From Chloroflexota bacterium (lineage in GTDB: Bacteria; Chloroflexota; Anaerolineae; Promineifilales; Promineifilaceae), in assembly GCA_003696605.1 (NCBI GenBank), contig RFGV01000312.1, positions 1 through 42,193 on the forward strand: a DNA stretch of 42,193 nt, in the 5' to 3' direction. The notes under the pieces were generated by a model. It saw nothing but the letters and a program-made list of their open reading frames with translations. It had not been told where the DNA came from and made no database searches. This document shows, in pieces, positions 349 through 28,782 of the stretch. The position numbers were made by a program, and so were the translations under genes. The number at the start of each line of letters is the position of its first letter. The first letter of the stretch is position 1.

Positions 349-3300
349 TTATTTTTTCTTGCGGGCTGGGAAGCGGGTGAGTATAGTTGCCGGATCGGGG
401 GTGGGTAGGCGCGTGCCGGGTTTGATGATGGATGGTTCAGGGGCGCGAATCGGCCGTTTTCCGCCGCCGAGTTGATAAATGTAAATAGAAGTACCTGGCT
501 TACTCATGCTCACAGGTACAAGGGCTTGCCCCAGAAGATACCCTTCGCTGTCAATGGCACAACTGGTCACCGTACCGATGACTTTCCCGCGTCGATCCAG
601 CACCGGATCGCCCAATTCAGGCCGTCGCACACCTTTGTCGTTCATTCTGAAGCGAACCACGATATTTTCTCGTTGTTCTTCGTGGGTGATAAAGGCAGAA
701 CGGCCGATAAAGAATGGCTTCCATAGCTTGACATAACTTGAAAATCCCGCGTCGCCTGGATTCAAATCTAACGGTCCGGCCAACTCATGCCCGTAAAGTG
801 GCAAACCAGCTTCGGTGCGGGTGCTGTCGCGAGCTGCCAGACCACATGGCTTAAGGCCAAAAGGTTCTCCGGCTTCGAGCAGCTTTTGCCACAAGTCAGG
901 TGCCTGGTCAGGGTGGACAAATAACTCATAGGCAATCCGTTCACCGGTGTAACCGGTGCGAGAGATGATCAGGTCAAAGCCAGCAACTGTACCGCGCAGC
1001 AAGCCCGCCCAGGGCAATTTCTTGATTTTGGCGGCCAATTGATTGTCGTCGCACAAGGCAAGCAGAATATCCATGGCCCGTGGTCCTTGCAGAGCCAGGT
1101 CAACGCGACGGTCGTCGCCATGTTCGGGGGCACGCAAATCGCGTAGGGTTACCGGGTGCTGGATACGAGCAAACGGCCGTTTCTCATCAATCATCACCCG
1201 CCCTTCATTCACCGCATTCAACCACGCCCAATCCTTATCATTGTTCGCAGCATTCACAACCAGCATAAAACGATCTTCTGCCAACCGATAAACCAGCAAA
1301 TCATCCACCACCCGTCCATCCGGAAAAAGCATATACGTGTAATGAGATTGTCCTACTTTGAGGGCAGAAACGTCATTCGTCAACACCGTATTCAGAAACG
1401 TTTCTACATGCGGGCCACTGGCTTCCAATACACCCATGTGACTTACATCGAACAGCCCGGCCGCTTCACGCACAGCCAGATGCTCCTCACTGACCGAAGT
1501 GTACCAAACCGGCATTTCGTAACCGCCAAATGGGACAATTCGTGCCCCCATGGCCACATGCGTATCGTAAAGCGGCGTACGTTTGAGTGGCATGTCGGCT
1601 GGTTCTTCCCAACTGAATGCCGGTAAGGGGGGGCCGCCTTCCAGCCGTTTGCAGCCGACAAAATACGGTTTGGTAGCAACAATCGCCGCTGAATCCGGAG
1701 TGGGAGCCGGCATATCTGTTACATCTGGGATAGTTGTCACGACCACCGGCCCGGCCAGTTTTGCATATACATCATCTGTCTCGAAGCGCACGTACCCATC
1801 TGAAAGGGCAGTAAGCCATTCAGCCGCTTGCTGGGCATTGGTAGCATTGGCGAAGCGCAAGAGAAAACGGTTGGCAGAGGCACGATAGAGGGTAGCATCT
1901 ACATCCAGGCCATCACCGAAGAGGTGAGTTGGTTGTGATTCACCGTCGTTCAGGGCAGAAACATTGCTGGTGAGGGCATGATTCAGAAGCGAAACGGCCG
2001 ATTCTCCCCGAACTTCTACCGTATCACCAGCAGGAATCGGTGCGGTTTGCTGGCGTAACTGCCGCACAATCTCCCGGCCCCGCTGCAACGCTGCAAAATC
2101 CACCTTGGCCCGCAACAACCGCTTACCACCCAAAGCCGAATAATAAAAAGGTGTACATCCCTTCAGCACAGTCGCAATCGCTTCTGCCAGCAAATCAACT
2201 TCTGCTTCGCCAAAACCAAGCTGGCTAATCCATACCGTGCCAATACGCAAGCCGGTTGGATTTAACGCACCCACATCACCCGGAATCGTATTTCGATTCA
2301 AAACAATTCCGGCAAGATCCAAAATACGAGCGGCCATATCTCCAGAAAGATGCACACCATTATGCTGGATGCTTTTGGTATCTACCAGCAACAAATGATT
2401 TTGAGTTCCACCGCCCACAATACGCAGTCCATGTTCCGCCAGCTTTTGTGCCAGGCGGGCAGCATTATCCACTACCCTTTGTTGCAATGCGCGGAACTGG
2501 TCGGTATTAGCCAGTTTCAGGGCAACAGCCAGAGCCGCAATTGTGTTGAGGTGAGGGCCGCCCTGTTCGCCAGGGAAAACAGCGCGGTCAATTTTGCGGT
2601 AAAGATCTTTGCGATGTGTCATGATCATGGCACCGCGAGGACCGCACAAGCTTTTATGGGTTGTTGTTGTCACTACATCTGCAATGCCTATTGGACTGGG
2701 ATGGACACCAGCCGCTACCAGGCCGGCAATGTGGGCAATGTCAGCCATCAGGTAAGCCCCTACTTTGTCGGCAATGGCTCGGAATCGTTGCCAGTCAATT
2801 ATCATGGGGTAAGCGGAATAACCGGCAACAATAATGTTGGGTTTAGCTTCGAGGGCAATTTGCTCAATTTCATCGTAGTCCAACAACTCTGTTTGGGGAT
2901 TTACGAAATAGGGCACTGCGTTGTAGAGTTTTCCGGAGCGATTGACGCGGGAACCATGTGAGAGGTGTCCGCCATCGTTAAGGTTGAGCCCCATGATGGT
3001 GTCGCCGGGGTTGAGCAGGGCGGTGTAAACGGCGCTGTTGGCAGGTGCGCCACTTAGGGGTTGCACGTTGACGTAGAGATCATCGGCGGTGAGGCCATTG
3101 GCCGCGAAAAGCTCAGCTGCCCGACGCCGGGTGAGGGCTTCGAGGATGTCGGCGTATTCCACGCCTTTGTAGTAGCGGGGGTCGCTGTAGCGTCGGTAAT
3201 GGGCCAGTTCCATTTCGATGTCCATGATTTCGTCTTCGGTTTGGCGGCGGCTTTCTTCCCGTGGGTAGCCTTCGGCGTAGATGTTGCCAAAGGTGCTGCT

Positions 3301-3450
3301 CATGGTGTGGCGGACAACGTTGGGGGCTGCGCTTTCGGAAGCGATGAGGATGATGGTGCTGTCTTGCCGCTGGTTTTCGCGGGTGAGGATTTGGTGCAGA
3401 TGGGGGTCGAGTTCTTCGAGTGAACCGTGAAAAATAAAGTCTTGGGCCAT
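349..3450 (-). CDS. Serine hydroxymethyltransferase-aminomethyltransferase (GlyA-GcvT) fusion
   Basis: The uninterrupted 1033-residue protein joins two enzymes of one-carbon metabolism. Residues 1 to about 440 are a PLP-dependent serine hydroxymethyltransferase, with the lysine-containing TTTTHKSLCGPRG motif (Lys266) and the early EGYP motif. Residues about 620-1010 are a GcvT T-protein, starting RTPLYDTHVAMGARIVPFGG and containing NDVSAL, RTGYTGE and an RxEAGLPLYGHE-like segment. Together they would interconvert serine, glycine and 5,10-methylene-THF. The 150 to 180 residues between them include a region (about 478-552) that aligns by eye with the N-terminal part of the GcvT domain (about 674-750), suggesting a decayed duplicate. 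AGGAG lies 7 bases upstream of the ATG. No other gcv genes are adjacent. Both enzyme identities are clear; whether both are active in one chain is inferred. Confidence 0.93.
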   Translation of the reverse strand: MAQDFIFHGSLEELDPHLHQILTRENQRQDSTIILIASESAAPNVVRHTMSSTFGNIYAEGYPREESRRQTEDEIMDIEMELAHYRRYSDPRYYKGVEYADILEALTRRRAAELFAANGLTADDLYVNVQPLSGAPANSAVYTALLNPGDTIMGLNLNDGGHLSHGSRVNRSGKLYNAVPYFVNPQTELLDYDEIEQIALEAKPNIIVAGYSAYPMIIDWQRFRAIADKVGAYLMADIAHIAGLVAAGVHPSPIGIADVVTTTTHKSLCGPRGAMIMTHRKDLYRKIDRAVFPGEQGGPHLNTIAALAVALKLANTDQFRALQQRVVDNAARLAQKLAEHGLRIVGGGTQNHLLLVDTKSIQHNGVHLSGDMAARILDLAGIVLNRNTIPGDVGALNPTGLRIGTVWISQLGFGEAEVDLLAEAIATVLKGCTPFYYSALGGKRLLRAKVDFAALQRGREIVRQLRQQTAPIPAGDTVEVRGESAVSLLNHALTSNVSALNDGESQPTHLFGDGLDVDATLYRASANRFLLRFANATNAQQAAEWLTALSDGYVRFETDDVYAKLAGPVVVTTIPDVTDMPAPTPDSAAIVATKPYFVGCKRLEGGPPLPAFSWEEPADMPLKRTPLYDTHVAMGARIVPFGGYEMPVWYTSVSEEHLAVREAAGLFDVSHMGVLEASGPHVETFLNTVLTNDVSALKVGQSHYTYMLFPDGRVVDDLLVYRLAEDRFMLVVNAANNDKDWAWLNAVNEGRVMIDEKRPFARIQHPVTLRDLRAPEHGDDRRVDLALQGPRAMDILLALCDDNQLAAKIKKLPWAGLLRGTVAGFDLIISRTGYTGERIAYELFVHPDQAPDLWQKLLEAGEPFGLKPCGLAARDSTRTEAGLPLYGHELAGPLDLNPGDAGFSSYVKLWKPFFIGRSAFITHEEQRENIVVRFRMNDKGVRRPELGDPVLDRRGKVIGTVTSCAIDSEGYLLGQALVPVSMSKPGTSIYIYQLGGGKRPIRAPEPSIIKPGTRLPTPDPATILTRFPARKKK

Positions 3451-4530: not shown

Positions 4531-4881
4531 ATGTATATGCTCATTATGGTTTTAGACGATAGCAGCCGTTTGCAAGAGGTATTGCAGGCGTGGCGTGATG
4601 CAGGTATCAAGGGAATTACAGTGCTGGAAAGTACTGGCCTCAACCGAATTTTGCCGCGTACATCGGCCCAGCCAATGTATGCCGGTTTTACGCAGATGTT
4701 TGGTTCGGGGCGGGTGGGGCACAATACATTGTTTGCGGTGATTGATTCGCTGGAGGAGGCAGAAACGGCCGTTCAGGCCACTGAAAACGTCCTCGGCGAT
4801 TTAACCAAGCCCCACACTGGCATTATTTTCGCTGTACCCGTAGCCAAAACCTGGGGTTTCCCAGAACCTTACGCTGAATGA
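4531..4881 (+). CDS. PII-like (ferredoxin-fold) regulatory protein
   Basis: This 116-residue soluble protein begins MYMLIMVLDDSSRLQEVLQA and has the beta-alpha-beta pattern of the PII/DarA/CutA-like superfamily. Features include a first strand, a helix, an ITVLESTGL second strand, a long loop over residues about 42-62 in the T-loop position, then HNTLFAVIDSLEEAETAV. PII-like proteins are trimeric sensors that bind nucleotides or other small ligands and often control a neighbouring transporter. AAGGAGA lies just before the ATG. It ends 36 bp before an antiporter gene on the same strand, so it may regulate that transporter. The fold call is by eye and the ligand is unknown; a CutA-like metal protein is the main alternative. 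Confidence 0.6.
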   Translation: MYMLIMVLDDSSRLQEVLQAWRDAGIKGITVLESTGLNRILPRTSAQPMYAGFTQMFGSGRVGHNTLFAVIDSLEEAETAVQATENVLGDLTKPHTGIIFAVPVAKTWGFPEPYAE

Positions 4882-4917
4882 CCATAACCGTTTCAGTAAG
4901 TTGCAGAGGATACATAG

Positions 4918-5910
4918 ATGCCCTGGATTAGATTTCTTTTGAGCGCGGCTGTTGTTGTTTTTGCTGCTATCAAACTGGCAGAATATGGTGACATTATCGC
5001 TGTTCGTACCCGTTTGGGTGGTGTTTTTGTCGGTACAATTTTTCTGGCTGGCGCGACGTCGTTGCCAGAATTGCTGACATCTATTAGTGCGTTTCGGGCT
5101 GGTGTGCCAGACCTGGCTGCTGGTAATTTTTTCGGCAGTAATATGGTGAATATGCTGTTGCTGGCACTGGTGGATTTGATCAATTATCAGGTTCCCCTGT
5201 TGCGCCGCATAGCGATTAGCCATGCCCTGACAGCAGCACTGACAACTGTACTGATGTTGATTGCTATTATCTCCATTATGGCAGATGTGAATTTGATGCT
5301 GGGCTGGATGGGGGTGGATAGCCTGCTGCTTATTTTTCTCTACTTTTGGGGGGTGTGGCTTATTCAGCGGGAGAATAATAGCGGGGTGCAAGTGGAGGGG
5401 GTGAGTATGGAGCCGGCAGAGGGGTTTCCAACGTTGCGGAAAGGAGTGCTTGGGTTTGCAGGAACGGCCGTTCTCCTCATTCTTGTTGTGCCTCAATTGG
5501 TACAGGCCAGCAACGAAATCGCGGCAATCACTGGTTTGGGGAGTGGTTTTGTCGGGACAGCACTACTCAGTTTGGTCACTTCCTTGCCAGAATTGTTGGC
5601 CGCGCTGGCTGCTATGCGTATCAATGCCTTTGATATGGCTGTGGGCAATCTGTTCGGTTCGAGTGTGTTCAACATGCTGGCATTGGGCATTGCAGATGTG
5701 TTCTATCTAAACGGCCGTTTTCTGGGAGACATCGATCCAGACTTCGCATTAGTTGGGCTGCTGGGACTATTACTCATAAACATGGCACTGGTAGGCAATC
5801 TGGCTCGAGTAGAACGAAAAGTACTCTTTGTCGAACTGGATACACTGGCAATTTTAATCACCTACCTGCTGGGCATGTACCTGTTGTTTCTGCGGGGTAT
5901 TGGTGCCTGA
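4918..5910 (+). CDS. Sodium/calcium exchanger-family (CaCA) antiporter
   Basis: A polytopic membrane protein of 330 residues with about ten hydrophobic segments and the two inverted alpha-repeats that define the CaCA superfamily. Repeat 1 carries GATSLPELLTSI followed by GNFFGSNMVNMLLLAL. Repeat 2 carries LVTSLPELLAAL followed by GNLFGSSVFNMLALGI. The paired acidic residues in the two SLPELL motifs are the known cation ligands. A hydrophilic loop at about residues 155-175 separates the halves. It likely exchanges Na+ or H+ for Ca2+ or another cation across the cytoplasmic membrane. AGAGGA lies 7 bases before the ATG, and the upstream PII-like gene is probably co-transcribed. Ion specificity cannot be read from the sequence. 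Confidence 0.88.
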   Translation: MPWIRFLLSAAVVVFAAIKLAEYGDIIAVRTRLGGVFVGTIFLAGATSLPELLTSISAFRAGVPDLAAGNFFGSNMVNMLLLALVDLINYQVPLLRRIAISHALTAALTTVLMLIAIISIMADVNLMLGWMGVDSLLLIFLYFWGVWLIQRENNSGVQVEGVSMEPAEGFPTLRKGVLGFAGTAVLLILVVPQLVQASNEIAAITGLGSGFVGTALLSLVTSLPELLAALAAMRINAFDMAVGNLFGSSVFNMLALGIADVFYLNGRFLGDIDPDFALVGLLGLLLINMALVGNLARVERKVLFVELDTLAILITYLLGMYLLFLRGIGA

Positions 5911-5916
5911 CAATAA

Positions 5917-5942
5917 AAAAGCGACGCCCTCGCGCCGCTTTT
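5917..5942 (+). terminator. Bidirectional terminator between convergent genes
   Basis: AAAAGCG (5917-5923) pairs with CGCTTTT (5936-5942), with a partly paired GC-rich loop. The A run on the left and T run on the right give U-tracts in both directions. It therefore serves the antiporter gene ending at 5910 and the LysM gene ending at 5968 on the other strand. Confidence 0.75.
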
Positions 5943-5967
5943 GTCCATTTGGGCACAGATTGATTGG

Positions 5968-6399
5968 CTAATCCAACTTTGGAATTTTGAGTACCTGGCC
6001 TGGGCGAATCAGACTGGGATTATCACCAATGATCTCCTTATTTGCTTCGTAGATAGCCATCCATTTTTCGCGTGCGGCCGAGTTGTAATACTTGGCGGCA
6101 ATGCCACTCAGTGTGTCACCGCTCACAACAGTGTGTTCAGCAATAAAGGGGGGTTGCGCTGATGGGGCAGGAGCAGCCTTGCGCGTGGGTACGCCCTTAG
6201 TCATCGTTTCTTTTTCAGACAGATCGTCACCTCGATTTTGCTTGCTCTTAGCGGTTTCAGCTTGTTTGGTTACTTGTGAGAGGGCGTCTTTGGCCTTTTT
6301 TGTGGAATCCTCTTTCTTTTTGCCGGCCGATTCACGCCAATTTGGTTTTGCTGCCTGGGCTCTTTTCATTCTTTCCAGAGCTTCATCTTTTTCTGCCAT
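5968..6399 (-). CDS. LysM-domain protein without signal peptide
   Basis: A 143-residue protein. Residues 1-80 are highly charged and low in complexity (Lys, Glu, Ala), with no hydrophobic leader. The C-terminal 50 residues form one LysM domain, seen as HTVVSGDTLSGIAAKYYN then NPSLIRPGQVLKIP. LysM domains bind N-acetylglucosamine polymers such as peptidoglycan. The lack of a signal peptide suggests a cytoplasmic stress protein, as with YgaU/Kbp-type LysM proteins, or export by another route. AAGGAGA lies 8 bases before the ATG. It is the last gene of the leftward run, with a shared terminator. Confidence 0.85.
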   Translation of the reverse strand: MAEKDEALERMKRAQAAKPNWRESAGKKKEDSTKKAKDALSQVTKQAETAKSKQNRGDDLSEKETMTKGVPTRKAAPAPSAQPPFIAEHTVVSGDTLSGIAAKYYNSAAREKWMAIYEANKEIIGDNPSLIRPGQVLKIPKLD

Positions 6400-6521
6400 T
6401 TGTATTTCTCCTTTTGGGGTACAACTAATTGGGGTGTGCTAAAAACTGACCCGATTTGATAAACTCTACTATATAAGACACCAATTATTTACACAAGTCA
6501 CATTTTTGGGGTGGGGTGATG

Positions 6522-7025
6522 TCAGGTGTCCAGGCGCAGGATGTATTCTTCGATTTCGGCGTTGCGGGCGTTGGCGAACCCTTTGTCTTCTCCGATGATT
6601 TGGAAGCCGCATTTTTGCAGAACGCGGAGGGAGGGAATGTTGTCTTTGGCGACGCGGGCGTATAACGGCCGTTTTTCTTCCATGTTCAGATATTGCGTAA
6701 GCGCTTTTGTCATGATTCCTTTTCCCCACCATGCTTGCCCTAGCCAATAGGTGATTTCTGGATCGCCATCCCGCTCAAACCGGGCAAGATGGCCAGCAAC
6801 ACGGCCGTTTACCAAAATAGTCTTCTTGATGATGGTTTCATTTTGCAGTAGCCTGTGCCAGTGGGCCATAAAAGCTTCTTTATCTGATGGGTCTTTGGCC
6901 GTAAAGGCGGCCATCCAGACAGCTTCTGGTTCTTGTTGGTGCTGAAAAAAGATGGGTAAATCATCAGAGGTTACATCTCGTAGCTGAATTTGGAAATTTG
7001 TTTGGTGGGTTTTATGAGTGTTCAT
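6522..7025 (-). CDS. GNAT-family N-acetyltransferase
   Basis: A 167-residue acetyltransferase of the RimJ/RimL-like GNAT type. It carries ITYWLGQAWWGKGIMTKAL, in which the WWGKGI segment corresponds to the acetyl-CoA pyrophosphate loop. The C-terminal NIPSLRVLQKCGFQIIGED is the usual N-x-x-S-x-x-V-x-x-K-x-G-F motif. It would transfer acetyl from acetyl-CoA to an amine; the substrate is unknown. The ATG at 7025 is chosen because AGGGGAG lies 9 bases upstream; a longer frame would need a TTG inside that site. It follows moxR by 29 bp, so the two may be co-transcribed, but no functional link is evident. Confidence 0.88.
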   Translation of the reverse strand: MNTHKTHQTNFQIQLRDVTSDDLPIFFQHQQEPEAVWMAAFTAKDPSDKEAFMAHWHRLLQNETIIKKTILVNGRVAGHLARFERDGDPEITYWLGQAWWGKGIMTKALTQYLNMEEKRPLYARVAKDNIPSLRVLQKCGFQIIGEDKGFANARNAEIEEYILRLDT

Positions 7026-7054
7026 TTGCGAAAACTCCCCTGGCAACGAACTTT

Positions 7055-7999
7055 TTATATTTCACCGATGTGTAACGGTGTTTCCTGCAAGATTTCGTCC
7101 AAAATTTGCTGAACAGTAAGGCCGCGCAGGGCACTTTCGGGGTGGATGATGCAGCGATGGGCCAGAACGGCCGTTGTCAGGTGTTTTACGTCATCAGGCA
7201 GCACATAGTCGCGCCCTTGCAGGGCAGCATAAGCCTGTGCGCCTCGATAGAGGGCATGGCTGCCTCGCGGGCTGGCACCCAAAATCAGGTCTTTGTGGTT
7301 GCGGGTGGCAAAGACAAGCCGGACAATGTATTCACGCACAGTATCATCTACATGCACCTGCCACACCTGACGCGCCAGTTTTGGTAACTGGTGACCATCT
7401 ACGACTTGTGAGATGGTTTCAATTGGATGGACGCCGCCCAGGTTGACCAGCATTTGGCTTTCGGTAGCTTCGTCCAGGTATCCCAGGCTGAGTTTCATGA
7501 AGAAACGGTCTAACTGGGCTTCGGGCAGGGGGAATGTGCCTTCGTATTCGATGGGGTTTTGGGTGGCCAGGACGAAAAACGGCCGTTCCAAAGGATACGT
7601 TACACCATCCACCGTTACCTGACGTTCCGCCATACTTTCCAGCAAGGCAGCTTGGGTGCGCGGCGTCGCCCGATTAATCTCATCTGCCAGCAATACATGG
7701 GTAAATGCCGGACCAGGAATGAAGGTGAAGGCTTGTTTCTTTTGGTCAAAGATTGAGACGCCGGTGACATCATTGGGGAGTAAGTCGGGTGTGCATTGCA
7801 AACGCTTGAAAGTAACACCCAAACTGATGGCAATTGCCCGGGCCAGAATTGTTTTACCTACTCCCGGCACATCTTCCAGTAACACATGACCTTCGCATAG
7901 CAAAGCTACGGCCAACATTTCCAGCACGGATCGTTTGCCGATGATGACTTTTTCGACGTTGTCCAGCAAGGTTTCCACGAATTGTTGGATTTCTTTCAT
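7055..7999 (-). CDS. MoxR-family AAA+ ATPase
   Basis: A 314-residue cytoplasmic AAA+ ATPase of the MoxR branch, which acts as a chaperone-like factor in maturing protein complexes. It shows Walker A (EDVPGVGKT), Walker B (LLADEINRA), the QAALLESMAERQVTVDG segment, sensor 1 (FFVLATQNPIEYEGTFPLPE), an arginine-finger QLDRF and the sensor-2 region LGASPRGS. MoxR genes usually precede DUF58 and VWA-domain genes, and none are here, so it is a solo copy. The ATG at 7999 has GGAG 9 bases upstream; an ATG at 8014 is also possible. The still longer frame to 8254 is unlikely, as it runs into the upstream divergent promoter region. Confidence 0.9.
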   Translation of the reverse strand: MKEIQQFVETLLDNVEKVIIGKRSVLEMLAVALLCEGHVLLEDVPGVGKTILARAIAISLGVTFKRLQCTPDLLPNDVTGVSIFDQKKQAFTFIPGPAFTHVLLADEINRATPRTQAALLESMAERQVTVDGVTYPLERPFFVLATQNPIEYEGTFPLPEAQLDRFFMKLSLGYLDEATESQMLVNLGGVHPIETISQVVDGHQLPKLARQVWQVHVDDTVREYIVRLVFATRNHKDLILGASPRGSHALYRGAQAYAALQGRDYVLPDDVKHLTTAVLAHRCIIHPESALRGLTVQQILDEILQETPLHIGEI

Positions 8000-8120
8000 T
8001 TTGATTTGCTCCATTTTGATGGCAGATTGTGGAAACGGCCGTAAAGCAGTCGTGGTATTACTGATGGTAATCATAACAGCGAAACAGGTTAGCAGGCAAA
8101 CCGACTGACATAAAGAAAAC

Positions 8121-8129
8121 TGTGGATAA
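8121..8129 (-). other. Single DnaA-box-like 9-mer
   Basis: TGTGGATAA is the exact reverse complement of the DnaA-box consensus TTATCCACA. It lies alone in the 172-bp divergent region between moxR and the methyltransferase gene. One isolated match in 42 kb is expected by chance about a third of the time, so no origin or DnaA control is claimed. Confidence 0.3.
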
Positions 8130-8171
8130 GTCAGCTTGCGCACTTTGCCATTTCCGCATAAAAATGCACCA

Positions 8172-10139
8172 ATGACCAAGACCAAGATTCCACTTGATGC
8201 CGAGTTTGATATTACTTTTGCGGATGAAATTGCCCGTTTGGAGGCATTTAACAAACATCATTACCGCCCCAACACCTATTTACACAAGTGGTGGGCGCGT
8301 CGGTGTGGTAGCACCTTTCGCCTGATTCTCAAGCATTTGGTGGATGACCCGGCATTACGTGATTATTATGCGCCGGGCGGGCTGGCCGGGAAAGTGATTT
8401 TGGATCCGATGATGGGGGGTGGGACGACGTTGCATGAGGCGATTCGGCTGGGTGCGAATGTGATTGGGGTGGATATTGATCCGATTCCGGTGTTGCAGGC
8501 GCGGGCAACTTTGTCGGATGTGCGGCTGGTGGACCTGGAACAATCGTTTCGGCGGTTTTTTCGACAGTTGCAGGCCGGGCTGGGGGAGTGGTTTGTCACG
8601 ACATGCCCGCATTGTGCGCGTGTGGTGCCGTTTCGGTTTGTGTTGTATGGGTTACGGCGGTTTTGTGCGTGTGGGCCGGTGTTGGTCATGGATTCGGCCG
8701 TTTTGCGGCACGATTCGGATGGAACGGTTATTCGTATTTGCGAACGATGTCATCAGATTGTGCGAGGGAGCGAAGGGTGTAGTTGCCCGGAAACGGCCGT
8801 TCTTCCCCCCATTGTTACCCGCTCCCAGCGTCATTGCCAGCAATGTAGTCAGGCCTACCGTGAAGATACCGAAACACCCTTTTATGCCCGTTACGAACCC
8901 CTGGTCATTGTCGGCCGTTGTCCCGACCATCACCTCTTTTTCAAAGCGCCAGACGCTGAAGACAAGGCTCGCTGGCAGGCTGCCAATCAAATGCGACATT
9001 CTCTCAACCTCGATCCTGCTCATTTTGAAGTTTCCTTTGGGCCTAAATCTCGCCAACTGATTTATCGTGGGGTGCATAATTATCTGGATCTTTTTTCCAG
9101 TCGTCAGTTACTTTATTTAGAACAGACCATTTCACTTTTGCCTGAATTTGAGCCTGTTTGTCGCCTGAACCTGGCCTTGCTGGTTTCCACATCACTGGAG
9201 TTTAATTCGATGTTGTGTGGATATAAAGGGCGTAGCAAGCGGCGGGCTGGTGCAATTCGCCATACGTTTTCTCATCATGCCTATTCATTTCCTTATACGG
9301 CTTTGGAGAACAATCCGCTTTATCCGCGCATGTCGTCGGGGACGCTGCAAAAATTGTTTCATGCCCGTATTCGGCGGGGGCGAATGTGGGCGCGTGCGCC
9401 ACGTGAGCGGGTGTTGGATGGGAAAACGGCCGATTTTATCCCCATTATTGGTGAGCGGGACGCAGGTACAGAGGTGATTGATGCGACTGAGTTACAAACT
9501 GGTACACGCCGTTTCCTTTTGTTGCAAGGCTCGGCCACCCGGCTGGCCTTGGCGGATGAAAGCGTGGACTTTGTTGTCACCGATCCCCCTTATTTTGATA
9601 GTGTCCAGTATAGTGATCTGGCTGCTTTCTTTCGGGTATGGCTGCGCCAGTTATTGCCAGATGCGGCCGATTGGGGATATGATGTGCGCGAATCGGCCGT
9701 TGATCCCCACAAGAACGACCGGGAAAGCCGGTATCGAGAATTGATGACGGGGATTTTTCAGGAGTGTTATCGCGTATTGCGCAAAGAAAACGGCCGTCTT
9801 GTCTTCACCTTTCACCACTGGAACCCAAAAGGCTGGGCGGCACTGACCTATGCCCTGAAAACAGCCAGATTTGTGTTACTCAACCGATACGTTGTGCATG
9901 CCGAAAACCCCATTTCGGTACATATTGCCAATATGAATGCCCTGTTACACGACGCCATTTTTGTTCTGGCACCAGCGCACACCGTTCAGGCACCTCATTG
10001 GTCTCCCCCTGCTACCATCAACCGGCAAGACAGCTATCAGTTCTGCCTGGATTGTGCCACCTTGCTTGGCTGGATGTTAAATACTGGCCTGGAAACGGCC
10101 GAAATTGAGCCAACCTGGCGCCGAGCTTTGAGCGACTAG
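8172..10139 (+). CDS. Zinc-ribbon DNA methyltransferase (DUF1156-like)
   Basis: A 655-residue S-adenosylmethionine-dependent DNA methyltransferase. Residues 29-45 (HHYRPNTYLHKWWARRC) and the motif I region LDPMMGGGTTLHEA (77-90) match the DUF1156-type large adenine/cytosine-N methylases. The catalytic motif IV is TDPPYFDSVQYSDL (470-483). Between them, residues about 145-250 contain several cysteine pairs (CPHC 145, CAC 165, CERC 190, CSC 203, CQQC 222), likely zinc ribbons for DNA or protein contact. No restriction enzyme or DISARM/BREX-type partner is adjacent, so it is an orphan. The ATG at 8172 lacks a clear SD. The TGA of a three-codon ORF starting at 8164 overlaps this ATG. Target sequence and base (N6A or N4C) are unknown. 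Confidence 0.85.
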   Translation: MTKTKIPLDAEFDITFADEIARLEAFNKHHYRPNTYLHKWWARRCGSTFRLILKHLVDDPALRDYYAPGGLAGKVILDPMMGGGTTLHEAIRLGANVIGVDIDPIPVLQARATLSDVRLVDLEQSFRRFFRQLQAGLGEWFVTTCPHCARVVPFRFVLYGLRRFCACGPVLVMDSAVLRHDSDGTVIRICERCHQIVRGSEGCSCPETAVLPPIVTRSQRHCQQCSQAYREDTETPFYARYEPLVIVGRCPDHHLFFKAPDAEDKARWQAANQMRHSLNLDPAHFEVSFGPKSRQLIYRGVHNYLDLFSSRQLLYLEQTISLLPEFEPVCRLNLALLVSTSLEFNSMLCGYKGRSKRRAGAIRHTFSHHAYSFPYTALENNPLYPRMSSGTLQKLFHARIRRGRMWARAPRERVLDGKTADFIPIIGERDAGTEVIDATELQTGTRRFLLLQGSATRLALADESVDFVVTDPPYFDSVQYSDLAAFFRVWLRQLLPDAADWGYDVRESAVDPHKNDRESRYRELMTGIFQECYRVLRKENGRLVFTFHHWNPKGWAALTYALKTARFVLLNRYVVHAENPISVHIANMNALLHDAIFVLAPAHTVQAPHWSPPATINRQDSYQFCLDCATLLGWMLNTGLETAEIEPTWRRALSD

Positions 10140-22094: not shown

Positions 22095-22784
22095 GTGAAT
22101 GTGGTGCAAGCAATTGTTGTTTCCCCAAATCAGGAAGACAGGGATCATCTGGGATTTGTGTTGCGTCAGGGGGGCTTGGGGGTTATTTCTATTGCTGATT
22201 TGGCGCAGGTGAAATCCGTTCTTCAGTCGCAAACGATTAGTTTGGTGCTGATAGCCCTGGATGATGGTGCGAAGCTGAGAGAGTTGGTGGAAAATTGGCG
22301 GGCAATTTCTCAGGTGCTGATAGTGGCAGTGGTGGAGCCATTGAGTGAACAGGCGCATTGTGATTTGTTGGATATTGGGGTGGATTTGGTGGTAGAACGG
22401 CCGTATTCCCCCCGTCTTTTACGTCGATACATCCGTGTACTTTTACAACGTGTTCAATCCCTTCCGGTTTCTGTTTTGCCCGGTATTGAAATAGACAATG
22501 TTTACCTCGATCCGGCCAGCCGCACAATCACCATTGACCAACATCCCCCTCAACGACTTACCGAGCTGGAATTTCGCCTTTTGTACGTACTCATGACTAA
22601 TTCTGGCCAGGTGATTCCTACAGATGTGATTGTGGAACGTGTGTGGGGGTACAGCGGCGAAGGAAATCGGGATCTGGTGCGAGGTCTGGTGCGACGATTG
22701 CGGCGCAAGATAGAACCCATTCAGGGAGAAACCCGTTATATTCATACATTGCCTGGTGTGGGGTATCGGTTCTTTCCGGAATAA
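22095..22784 (+). CDS. OmpR-like DNA-binding regulator with pseudo-receiver
   Basis: A 229-residue protein. The N-terminal 115 residues have a receiver fold but lack its phosphorylation chemistry. The acceptor position is Ala54 (VLIALDD), the acidic pair is replaced by VSPN (8-11 region), and the usual Lys is Arg102 (VERPY). The C-terminal 100 residues are a typical winged helix (LTELEFRLLYVLMTNSG, DVIVERVWGY, LVRRLRRKIEP, YIHTLPGVGYRF). It is thus an atypical regulator controlled by something other than phosphorylation. The start is a GTG 23 bp after the reductase gene, suggesting co-transcription. The target promoter is unknown. Confidence 0.88.
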   Translation: MNVVQAIVVSPNQEDRDHLGFVLRQGGLGVISIADLAQVKSVLQSQTISLVLIALDDGAKLRELVENWRAISQVLIVAVVEPLSEQAHCDLLDIGVDLVVERPYSPRLLRRYIRVLLQRVQSLPVSVLPGIEIDNVYLDPASRTITIDQHPPQRLTELEFRLLYVLMTNSGQVIPTDVIVERVWGYSGEGNRDLVRGLVRRLRRKIEPIQGETRYIHTLPGVGYRFFPE

Positions 22785-22970
22785 AAAGTTGTGCCAATTT
22801 GAATGAAATTACACAAGTTTGCCACGCTCTGACATGCTTTTGGTACATATTTTACACATTTTTTCCCCTTGTTTTGCACAATAGCTTGATATATTTTTTG
22901 CAGTTTGCCTGTGTTGACAGGTGGTTGAAACCTGAATAAAGGAGTTGTGTTTACAGGAGATTCTAAAATT

Positions 22971-23240
22971 ATGACCAGAAATATGGCCAACAAAGTTGTA
23001 GTGGCAACCTGTCCGGCATGTGATACACGCATTCGCTTTCGCAAGCATCCGCGCCGCGGGCAATTTGTTACTTGCCCGGAGTGTGAAAGTGTGCTGGAAG
23101 TGGTGCATGTGTCTCCTCTGGAATTAGATTGGGCGGATGAAGCATTCGATGATGATGAAATCTTCGATAGAATGCATAGCCACTCCTATCGTAGTTATGA
23201 TGAGTATGAAGATCTGGAAGATGAGGAAGATTGGGACTGA
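22971..23240 (+). CDS. LysW-like zinc-ribbon carrier protein with EDWD terminus
   Basis: An 89-residue acidic protein. Cys14-x2-Cys17 and Cys35-x2-Cys38 form one zinc ribbon, followed by LEVVHVSPLELDWADEAFD and an acidic tail ending EDEEDWD. The CxxC, CxxC, LEVV-x-PLxL and terminal EDW pattern is that of LysW/ArgW amino-group carrier proteins, whose C-terminal Glu (EDWGE) is loaded with aminoadipate or glutamate in lysine or arginine synthesis. Here the tail is longer and the last residue is Asp. No LysX/ArgX ligase gene is nearby. AGGAGA lies about 10 bases before the ATG. The relationship is by eye; it may be a non-carrier paralogue. Confidence 0.65.
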   Translation: MTRNMANKVVVATCPACDTRIRFRKHPRRGQFVTCPECESVLEVVHVSPLELDWADEAFDDDEIFDRMHSHSYRSYDEYEDLEDEEDWD

Positions 23241-23274: not shown

Positions 23275-23306
23275 AGGGCTTCCTGAAATGGGAAGCTCTT
23301 TTTTTT
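23275..23306 (+). terminator. Terminator after the LysW-like gene
   Basis: AGGGCTTCC (23275-23283) pairs with GGAAGCTCT, allowing one G-T wobble, around a short loop. It is followed by a run of eight Ts. It ends the transcript of the LysW-like gene. Confidence 0.85.
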
Positions 23307-26155: not shown

Positions 26156-27355
26156 TCAGGAAAGGGACTGGAGCCGATTTTTCATTGTGTTCAGCAATAA
26201 TTTAGAGTGTTTGGTGGGGGGGAGGGCTTGAAGGCCCTGGATGGCTTCCTGAAGAATTTGCCGAGAACGGCCGTTTTCCCCCAACGCTTCATACAATTCC
26301 GCCAAATTATCCATCGAATTTGCCCAGTTATACACATCACCCAACCGTTCATAAGCTGCAACAGCCTGCAACAACATCTCTTCTGCAGCCTGCCACTCCT
26401 TCATGCGCGTATAGACCATACCCAAGTTGTTATACAACCCCGCCACCTCCGACGGCTCCTGAATTTGCGAATGCAATCGCAAAGCCTCCTGCCAGGCTGC
26501 TTCTGCTGCCTTATAGTTAGCCTGATTAAAAGCCACCACACCCAGATTATTCTTCAACTGGCTTAATGTCTGCACATCTCCCAGGCTAATAAGATCGGCC
26601 ATAAGGTCTGAAGAAGCAGCATCAACCTGCTCCCATTCCCCCAACTCTGCCCAAAATGCCACCATATTCATTAACGCCTTAGTAGCAAAAGCAGGCTGAT
26701 TTAATTCTCGGTACAGGCGATGAGCTTTTTGGGCTGCCTTAAGTCCATCCCGCCAATTTCGGGTGCGTTTGTAAATGTGCGAAAGATTGAGATGGGCATG
26801 GGCAATAATATCTGTGGCTTGCAAGGAAGAGGCAATTTCAATAGCTTGCCGACACAAGGCGATGCTTTCTGTTGTTTTGCCCTGGAGGCTATCTACCAAA
26901 GCTGTTTTTGCCAGCAGACGGGAGTAGTCAGACAATTTTTGCATGGTTTGATATTGTTCCAGGGCGCGAGCATACTGTTCGGAGGCATCTTGTAACCTTC
27001 CCAGGTGATAATAGACATCTCCAATTTGTTCGAGCAGTCGGGCAGCAGCAAACGGCCGTTTCCCCTCATTCGCCAACTCCCACGCCTGCCACAAATACGT
27101 CAGCCACCTGTCCCAATCTGCATACCCAAAAACGGCCGAAAACATCCCCTGAATCAACCGATACCCCAAATCAAAAAACTCCACCGACTCCAACGCCGTT
27201 TCCAGCGCCCGCAACAAATTATCATAATCCCCCGCAATCAAATTCGCTGGACTAGCCGCCCCCTCCAATTGCGCCAGCCAATACTCAATATTTTGGCGAC
27301 GCTGTTGTTGCAAAACAGCCCGCCAATGCGCCCGATTCCGTATCGGTTTACTCAT
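26156..27355 (-). CDS. TPR-repeat protein, partner of the STAND ATPase
   Basis: A 399-residue soluble helical protein with about six to seven tetratricopeptide repeats over residues about 100-370. Examples are LEQIGDVYYHLGRLQDASEQY, AHLNLSHIYKRTRNWRDGL, LKNNLGVVAFNQANYKAAE, LYNNLGMVYTRMKEWQAAEEM and SMDNLAELYEALGENGRSRQ. TPRs mediate protein or peptide binding. Its ATG overlaps the TGA of the STAND gene by 4 bases (ATGA). The pair therefore looks like a regulator of the NB-ARC-TPR type split into two chains, with this chain as the ligand-sensing part. The ligand is unknown. Confidence 0.88.
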   Translation of the reverse strand: MSKPIRNRAHWRAVLQQQRRQNIEYWLAQLEGAASPANLIAGDYDNLLRALETALESVEFFDLGYRLIQGMFSAVFGYADWDRWLTYLWQAWELANEGKRPFAAARLLEQIGDVYYHLGRLQDASEQYARALEQYQTMQKLSDYSRLLAKTALVDSLQGKTTESIALCRQAIEIASSLQATDIIAHAHLNLSHIYKRTRNWRDGLKAAQKAHRLYRELNQPAFATKALMNMVAFWAELGEWEQVDAASSDLMADLISLGDVQTLSQLKNNLGVVAFNQANYKAAEAAWQEALRLHSQIQEPSEVAGLYNNLGMVYTRMKEWQAAEEMLLQAVAAYERLGDVYNWANSMDNLAELYEALGENGRSRQILQEAIQGLQALPPTKHSKLLLNTMKNRLQSLS

Positions 27356-28782
27356 TCCTCTGCCAACGCCCTCAACAAAAACACTTCCGTCAGACGGTGC
27401 AGCCGATACCGGCGCTCCGTCAGGCTCCCACCCGTATCCACCAACGACAACAAAATAAGCTCCTGCAAACAAACAGACACCCGCTCCACCGGCAAGCCCG
27501 AAACAGCCACCAGATGATCAAACGTAAACCCGGTTTCCCCCGCCTGTGTCAGAGCCAACAAAGTCACCTTGCTATCTGAACTCAGTGTTTCCCAAATCTC
27601 ACTGTAAATATAATCAAACAAATCCTGCTCACCCCGCACTTCCTGGCCAGGCACAAACCGCTCCAGCACATACGACAAAGAATGAAACCGCAACTGGCCA
27701 ACAACCAGCTTTAACGCCAATGGATTTCCCCCCACAACCTCATAAATCTTACGCAACGCCTTCTCATCTGCTTGCATCAAATCCATAAACCCGCTACGAC
27801 GCGCCTCCATACGAATCAACTGCAAAGCTGCTTCCCACGACAATTCACGCAACGAATACGAAAACACATCTGGCTCATCCAGCAAACGCAGACGAGACGT
27901 AAGCAAAAACTTGGTCGGATTAAGCCACTGGCGCAATTCTGGTAACAACAGACGATAATCGGCCACAGTTTCCAGATTGTCAATCACAATCAGACACGCC
28001 CTTTCACGTAAAAAACGACGAACCAATCGCTGCCGATCCAAAACCGATCTGCTCGCTCCAACAGGCAAATCAAACTGCTTGCTCAATTCATCAATCAGCA
28101 TTGGAAACGTTAATGCTGGCCGACCACTATCAATTTGCAGACGACCTAAAGTAGAAAGATGGGTTTGCTTGGCTGTAATCCACGCGATTTCCTGGAAACG
28201 AGGTGTATTGATCAGGTCACGAGTTACCTGGTCAGCCAATGCTGTTTTGCCAATCCCTCCCAGGCCATCAATAGCCACAATAAAGTGATTGTCTGGTGCC
28301 ATAAGTGCCTTGATGATAGTTTCTCGGGCTTCTTCTACCCCTACCAGTTCGGCATAGGAGGGTGGCTGAAGGCGATTTAACATGCGTTTCTGCCAGTTTT
28401 TGCTGGCCTGGGCTTCTAACTCGTTAATAATTGCTGTTAAGTGCTCAATAGCCTGGCGTTGACGATAATAAAAGCTGGATTCGGCAATGTTAAAGCTGTT
28501 GGCAAGAACAACAGCATCTTGCCCATGTTCAAACCGTGCTCGCAAAAGAGCTGCTGCATCGGGGCGAGTTCCAGCCAGTACGGTTAGGGCTTTCTCCAAT
28601 ACGGCCCGGTTGAGTGCTGCAGGCCCGGCTTCGGCCAGGCTGCCATGAGCCTCTGCTTCCTGATACAACAGGAGGCTCAGGCGCAAATTGGACAAAGGCC
28701 AACGCTCTGGCATTCCTTTATGCCATAAACGCAGGGCTTCGTGCACCTCTTCTACAGTGACTGATGCAAACGTTTTTTTCAA
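27352..28782 (-). CDS. NB-ARC STAND ATPase with N-terminal sigma-4-like HTH
   Basis: A 476-residue signal-transduction ATPase. Residues about 85-120 (VLANSFNIAESSFYYRQRQA) look like a sigma-70 region 4-type helix-turn-helix. Then comes the NB-ARC core: P-loop IDGLGGIGKT (171-180), Walker B CLIVIDNLE (263-271), sensor KFLLTSRLRL and GxP GGNPLALKL (351-359). The C-terminal winged helix ends in RLHRLTEVF, in the place of the MHD motif. There is no sensor repeat domain; the overlapping TPR gene supplies it. It is likely an ATP-switched transcription regulator, although STAND proteins also act in phage defence. The start appears to be TTG at 28782, with AGGAG 12 bases upstream, so the N-terminus is uncertain. 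Confidence 0.88.
   Translation of the reverse strand: MKKTFASVTVEEVHEALRLWHKGMPERWPLSNLRLSLLLYQEAEAHGSLAEAGPAALNRAVLEKALTVLAGTRPDAAALLRARFEHGQDAVVLANSFNIAESSFYYRQRQAIEHLTAIINELEAQASKNWQKRMLNRLQPPSYAELVGVEEARETIIKALMAPDNHFIVAIDGLGGIGKTALADQVTRDLINTPRFQEIAWITAKQTHLSTLGRLQIDSGRPALTFPMLIDELSKQFDLPVGASRSVLDRQRLVRRFLRERACLIVIDNLETVADYRLLLPELRQWLNPTKFLLTSRLRLLDEPDVFSYSLRELSWEAALQLIRMEARRSGFMDLMQADEKALRKIYEVVGGNPLALKLVVGQLRFHSLSYVLERFVPGQEVRGEQDLFDYIYSEIWETLSSDSKVTLLALTQAGETGFTFDHLVAVSGLPVERVSVCLQELILLSLVDTGGSLTERRYRLHRLTEVFLLRALAEE

Follow-up and report, generated by a model that had tools for sequence, protein, structure and literature searches.

A LysW-fold zinc-ribbon gene paired with an atypical OmpR/PhoB-type regulator and a putative operator in Chloroflexota

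Gene organization of the locus

The window, by which the whole 42,193-nucleotide stretch is meant, contains at positions 22971-23240 of the forward strand a gene for a LysW-fold zinc-ribbon protein with an acidic and aromatic tail, as assigned from its sequence, Pfam, a PDB match and structure prediction. The product consists of 89 residues (MTRNMANKVVVATCPACDTRIRFRKHPRRGQFVTCPECESVLEVVHVSPLELDWADEAFDDDEIFDRMHSHSYRSYDEYEDLEDEEDWD, followed by the stop codon). Direct reading of the sequence places a Shine-Dalgarno-like AGGAG at 22955-22959 (+), 11 nt 5' of the ATG, and an intrinsic terminator with an 11-pair stem and a following T run lies at 23275-23306 (+; -14.6 kcal/mol, z -2.6). The two zinc knuckles, C14xxC17 and C35xxC38 (23010-23084, +), are invariant in both alignments and modelled with pLDDT values above 90, and Pro-49 as well as the four Cys residues is invariant among the relatives of the zinc protein. 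Residues 55-89 (23133-23237, +) form the acidic/aromatic tail, which ends in EDWD, is predicted with low confidence (pLDDT about 50-76 per ten-residue block) and is probably disordered; its end is not conserved. The AGGAG sequence, the terminator, a PF21344 match of 39.8 bits and the presence of relatives in 45 of the 52 genomes of the bacterial family indicate that the open reading frame with a LysW-like ribbon proposed in the initial annotation is real, and the translation bears out the acidic tail ending in EDWD.

A gene for an atypical OmpR/PhoB-type regulator (22095-22784, +) lies upstream, and the intergenic region between the two genes carries a putative operator of TTNNNACR-like half-sites (22808-22880, +) and a -10 box, TATATT (22890-22895, +). 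The regulator is a recurrent neighbour in the loci of the family, and the remaining neighbours in the window are hardly ever in common. The initial annotation was right about the zinc protein but overlooked this conserved upstream regulator.

Elsewhere in the window, a 1033-residue open reading frame (349-3450, -) joins serine hydroxymethyltransferase (PF00464) to GcvT aminomethyltransferase (PF01571) and, judged from its domains, looks like an unusual fusion. An AAA ATPase-like frame (7055-8254, -) overlaps the start of a frame for an N6/N4 DNA methylase-like protein (8136-10139, +) that has PADLOC methylase matches. An NB-ARC ATPase frame and a following, overlapping TPR frame (26156-28782, -) could be one frameshifted gene or two overlapping genes.

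Fold of the zinc protein

The Pfam model Zn_ribbon_LysW (PF21344) matches the zinc protein with an E value of 3.5e-10, above the gathering cutoff of 27 bits, and LysW is also the best sequence match in the PDB (E 1e-7). In the AlphaFold2 model, which like that of the regulator was built from 30-32 sequences, ribbon residues 11-50 have pLDDT values above 90. The top six Foldseek matches to this model are all LysW structures, and VIA-align superimposes it on 5eio_C with a Z score of 8.9 and an rmsd of 0.7 over 46 residues, compared with a Z score of 4.2 for the next family, indicating that the predicted fold is the four-Cys zinc ribbon of LysW. The other zinc-ribbon families considered (TFIIB, MJ0042 and RBR/IBR) score lower in both sequence and structure, so that the Cys motif fits LysW best and not another zinc-ribbon family, the outcome that the initial annotation had named as adverse. 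Since the fold, the Pfam family and the four Cys residues are all those of LysW, the proposed LysW paralogue with a longer tail is upheld, and the option of a repurposed zinc protein gains support from the same features.

The LysW/ArgW carriers (TIGR01206, NF041070; PDB codes: 3wwl, 5eio, 5k2m and 3vpb) and the zinc protein have in common the zinc-ribbon fold, the four Cys residues, the LEVV...SPL core and PF21344. Unlike these carriers, the zinc protein has neither EDWGE nor a fixed terminal Glu, its tail is longer and varies freely, its ribbon is non-acidic, it falls below the cutoffs of the curated carrier models (30.6 against 53.2 for TIGR01206 and 25.2 against 75 for NF041070), and the genome search found no LysX/ArgX and, with the ArgB beside ArgC as the kinase covered, no LysW-type kinase. 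Two related loci (L047 and L074) encode proteins of 166-189 residues with two LysW-like ribbons in a single open frame.

Tail and ribbon charge

LysW and ArgW carry their substrate on the Glu that terminates EDWGE; in a haloarchaeon, substitution of this Glu by Ala results in an arginine requirement (PMC10433800). The bacterial family contains two classes, canonical LysW of 55-57 residues ending in EDWGE and LysW-like proteins, most of which combine a long tail with a core resembling P-L-x-L-x-W-A. The tails of 72 LysW-like proteins have a median length of 31 residues, with 45% D/E and 16% W/Y/F, and end variably in Asp (24), Arg (10), Tyr (10), Phe (9), Trp (7), Ser and others. DW occurs within the final five residues in 12 of the 72; EDWD is the end of a single one, the protein of the window itself, and of none of the 57 proteins in a second set. 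The comparison of orthologue tails suggested in the initial annotation therefore gave the answer that it had named as contrary to its own proposal, namely that the EDWD end is not conserved.

The net charge of the ribbon is -9.6 +/- 1.5 in canonical LysW (n=14, sequences chosen by their EDWGE ending) and -9 in Thermus thermophilus LysW, compared with -1.3 +/- 2.4 in LysW-like proteins (n=97) and +2 in the protein of the window, which thus does not have the acidic ribbon that serves as the enzyme docking surface. Between the knuckles, the mean charge is +1 in LysW-like proteins and -4.9 in LysW, and the former have basic strands of the type IRFRKxPRRG.

Carrier and arginine pathway in the host genome

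The host assembly (4.9 Mb in 705 contigs) is rated 100% complete. No LysX/ArgX over the cutoff was found in the whole assembly, the best match (145 bits against 275.6) being a RimK-family protein on another contig, and neither a second LysW nor a canonical LysW was found, so that the genome has one LysW-type ribbon only. The genome-wide search proposed in the initial annotation thus returned neither protein, and its remark that no ligase is nearby holds for the window as well as for the assembly. ArgB, encoded beside ArgC, scores 224 bits as acetylglutamate kinase (cutoff 151) and 122 bits as [LysW]-substrate kinase, below the cutoff of 194, and no ArgX lies in the approximately 500 nt upstream of ArgC. 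Host contig C686 carries ArgC, this acetylglutamate-type ArgB and an ArgD-like aminotransferase, and ArgJ has no match in the genome. Several relatives retain canonical LysW alongside the LysW-like protein.

Taken together, the tail ends, the ribbon charge and the missing enzymes speak against a LysW-type carrier role as far as sequences can tell. In particular, the carrier with a changed terminal residue envisaged in the initial annotation, that is, one ending in Asp, was rejected on the basis of the variable last residue, the loss of the acidic ribbon and the pathway enzymes that were searched for in the genome and not found.

The upstream regulator and its pairing with the zinc gene

The regulator is assigned from Pfam, its predicted structure and alignment as a receiver fold lacking the phospho-acceptor Asp, with a winged helix. 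The winged helix matches Trans_reg_C at 74.4 bits (cutoff 26.2), and the N-terminal half is predicted to adopt a receiver fold yet has no Response_reg match in Pfam. It does not show the Asp, acidic pair and Lys of a phosphorylated receiver, position 54 being Ala and position 102 Arg. Fold searches with the regulator retrieve OmpR-family structures, including HP1043 (2hqr) and RitR (5u8k/5u8m), phosphorylation-independent response regulators that have the receiver fold and winged helix in common with it; what distinguishes the regulator described here is its conserved association with the gene of a LysW-fold protein.

The regulator alone was used as query in the pairing search over named genomes because a bias from the zinc protein was to be avoided. 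Its named relatives are from Chloroflexota, mostly Anaerolineae, and this assigns the window to the same group. Of the 58 Anaerolineae-type regulator homologues (identity 37% or more), 35 are followed on their own strand, at a distance of up to 700 nt, by LysW-like genes (one in 20 loci, two in 15), compared with none of the 22 remote, mostly Ktedonobacterial homologues. Most of the genomes were assembled from metagenomes, all counts are inflated by related species, and the 80 named loci include several contigs that also belong to the family genomes. In the other 23 of the 58 loci, no LysW-like gene was found over this distance; fewer than 250 bp of sequence remain in two of them. None of the 58 Anaerolineae regulators has Asp at position 54, where most have Ala, but Asp occupies it in all 20 remote sequences aligned there, suggesting that the pairing-bearing branch lost the phosphorylation site, and the conserved receiver Lys is Arg in 52 of the 58. 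The Asp is missing from position 54 even in those members of the branch that have no LysW-like gene, so that the two changes do not strictly go together. PADLOC has no match for the pair of regulator and zinc protein.

In L131, L132, L133, L137 and L148, the regulator gene precedes two LysW-like genes. In several genera the first of the two has a basic tail end (RRRNGR or NKKERW) and the second an acidic one (DDDDDWED), as if, to judge from these ends, the tandem products were made to fit each other.

Intergenic repeats and promoter

The half-sites of the putative operator start at 22808, 22819, 22840, 22851 and 22873, with spacings of 11, 21, 11 and 22 bp, and the one at 22808 is weaker (ATTACACA). 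A scan of both strands of the 42 kb, using a matrix to which the window sequence did not contribute, ranked the repeat pairs at 22840 and 22808 as the top two, both in the intergenic region between the regulator and the zinc gene. TTNNNACR occurs 148 times in 36 such intergenic regions, compared with 32 +/- 5 when dinucleotides are shuffled; a spacing of exactly 11 bp was observed for 38 pairs, with 0.1 expected. When 1.88 Mb of related loci was scanned, nearly all strong repeat pairs were found to precede LysW-like genes.

The TATATT box of the window follows the last half-site by exactly 9 nt, as does a TATANT-like box in 25 of the 36 loci. Because such a box is found at any spacing in 30 of the 36, compared with a shuffle mean of 19.6, it is the fixed 9-nt spacing that carries weight. 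The arrangement, 11-bp direct repeats ending just before the -10 box, is that of PhoB-type promoters. In PhoB promoters of Escherichia coli, such a box can stand in place of the -35 element. The boxes of Streptomyces PhoP likewise consist of 11-nt direct repeat units (PMC6988585). The locus therefore shares with OmpR/PhoB-type promoters the 11-bp direct repeats for an OmpR-type winged helix and the box at the -35 place, and differs from them in that the repeat is TTNNNACR (often TTKRCACA) and is found mainly before the zinc gene, and in that the regulator has no phosphorylation site. Rfam has no match in the window.

A wide operator regulon in the host genome was considered and rejected: the strict pattern gave 17 matches compared with 10 for the reversed control, and the site in the window is the only one with four strong half-sites, so that no regulon can be claimed. 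The regulator is also not exclusive to the zinc gene, since 23 of the 58 loci are without it within 700 nt and the repeat cluster precedes YitT-like membrane protein genes in L152 and L155, where the zinc gene is missing, and lysine 2,3-aminomutase (KamA) in L160. The latter locus (4672-7463), which has no LysW-like gene, shows the repeats followed by a putative 20-codon open reading frame ending in NDDW, KamA and a Ddl-like ligase. L059 and L061 have YitT-like genes downstream of the zinc gene, and a KamA-like frame is downstream of the regulator homologue of L184, again without a LysW-like gene.

Neighbourhoods of the relatives

Within 2.5 kb of the 75 LysW-like genes of the family, there are 34 winged-helix regulators, 24 histidine kinases, 19 LuxR/NarL-type regulators, 13 Ddl-like ATP-grasp ligases and 9 GreA-like factors, and none of these five kinds of neighbour was found near the 14 canonical LysW genes. 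The histidine kinases have GAF and mostly also PAS domains (Pfam checked on three). The Ddl-like ligase gene lies 16-73 nt upstream of the LysW-like gene in most cases and 22 nt downstream in L069.

Class-wide, the Ddl-like ligase is present in 97 of 199 genomes. A LysW-like gene is within about 1.5 kb at only 4 of 30 Ddl-like loci, which rules out the ligase as an obligate partner of LysW-like proteins, and about half of these loci have lysine 2,3-aminomutase as a neighbour. The ligase was not found in the host genome. These counts suggest that a ligase-linked role is possible in those relatives that have the ligase nearby (13 of 75) and leave the window unexplained by it. The pair of lysine 2,3-aminomutase and Ddl-like ATP-grasp ligase, seen in L230-L255 and widespread in the class, is possibly a beta-lysine ligase system.

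Possible roles of the zinc protein

The most plausible hypothesis, to which we assign a probability of roughly 0.6, is that the zinc protein is an exapted LysW-fold ribbon that would act not as an amino-group carrier but as an output of the adjoining regulator, serving a phosphorylation-independent signalling or transcription unit as a regulated adaptor or in feedback. The phospho-dead regulator would bind the 11-bp repeats 5' of the zinc gene and, by replacing the -35 element, recruit RNA polymerase, thereby allowing the zinc protein to be made from what would be its own transcription unit, closed by the terminator. More tentatively, the ribbon might dock on a protein partner, with the flexible acidic/aromatic tail perhaps tuning the contact, and the zinc protein might in this way serve as the adaptor or feedback partner. 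Such a role fits the neighbours of the relatives, because histidine kinases, NarL/LuxR-type regulators and GreA-like factors are nearby. A more specific version, which we regard as rather unlikely, is that the zinc protein binds its own phospho-dead regulator and replaces the phosphorylation input, a product feedback through the ribbon and the acidic tail; LysW-fold ribbons would on this view make up a novel class of Chloroflexota signalling adaptors.

Among the alternatives, a carrier role for another substrate would have a RimK-type or Ddl-like ATP-grasp ligase attach an amino acid to acidic residues of the tail. The LysW fold, the RimK-family ligase in the genome and the Ddl-like ligases adjoining LysW-like genes in relatives are consistent with this, but it is improbable in view of the unconserved terminal residue, often R, Y, F or W, the lost ribbon charge and the Ddl-like partner that is missing from the host and rarely linked to LysW-like genes class-wide. 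Replacement of ArgW in the host arginine pathway by a zinc protein with a relaxed tail would account for ArgC, ArgB and an ArgD-like aminotransferase being present with no ArgJ match and no canonical LysW in the genome. It is nevertheless very improbable, as ArgB scores as an acetylglutamate kinase and not as a [LysW]-kinase, ArgX is found neither in the genome nor upstream of ArgC, several relatives hold canonical LysW besides the LysW-like protein, and the last Glu is essential in ArgW (PMC10433800).

A metal buffer or zinc reserve, with metal bound by both the ribbon and the acidic tail and a regulator that responds to metal stress, could be read from the zinc ribbon, the D/E-rich tail and the dedicated promoter. 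However, no metal transporter or Zur-like gene is prominent among the recurrent neighbours of LysW-like genes, the tails have no His/Cys clusters, and the context is one of signalling, which makes this reading quite doubtful. Somewhat less remote, although still unlikely, is a factor binding RNA polymerase or nucleic acid in a module with GreA-like factors, the neutral-to-basic ribbon making the contact and the acidic tail holding it off. The basic strands and the positive charge between the knuckles argue for it, as do the GreA-like neighbours, and a link of LysW-like ribbons to RpoP and to zinc motifs of B-family polymerases has been drawn elsewhere (PMC7544198); on the other side, GreA-like genes are near only 9 of the 75 LysW-like genes, and the best structural match is LysW and not a nucleic-acid-binding ribbon.

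Relation to known proteins and significance

LysW-like AmCP carriers of natural-product clusters have been described with encapsulin clusters (PMC8346489). The zinc protein has the fold name in common with them but, unlike them, has no biosynthetic cluster among its immediate neighbours as judged by Pfam, its conserved neighbour being the regulator. No description of LysW paralogues of this kind was found in the open-access literature searched.

LysW is the textbook carrier fold, and similar PF21344 matches could be annotated as carriers. The terminal residue, the ribbon charge and the neighbours are simple tests that separate a probable non-carrier branch, which is now tied to a regulator, a putative operator and a promoter. 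The branch with the pairing lost the phosphorylation site, and the remote relatives without the zinc protein kept it, which may offer a handle on phosphate-free control by response regulators.
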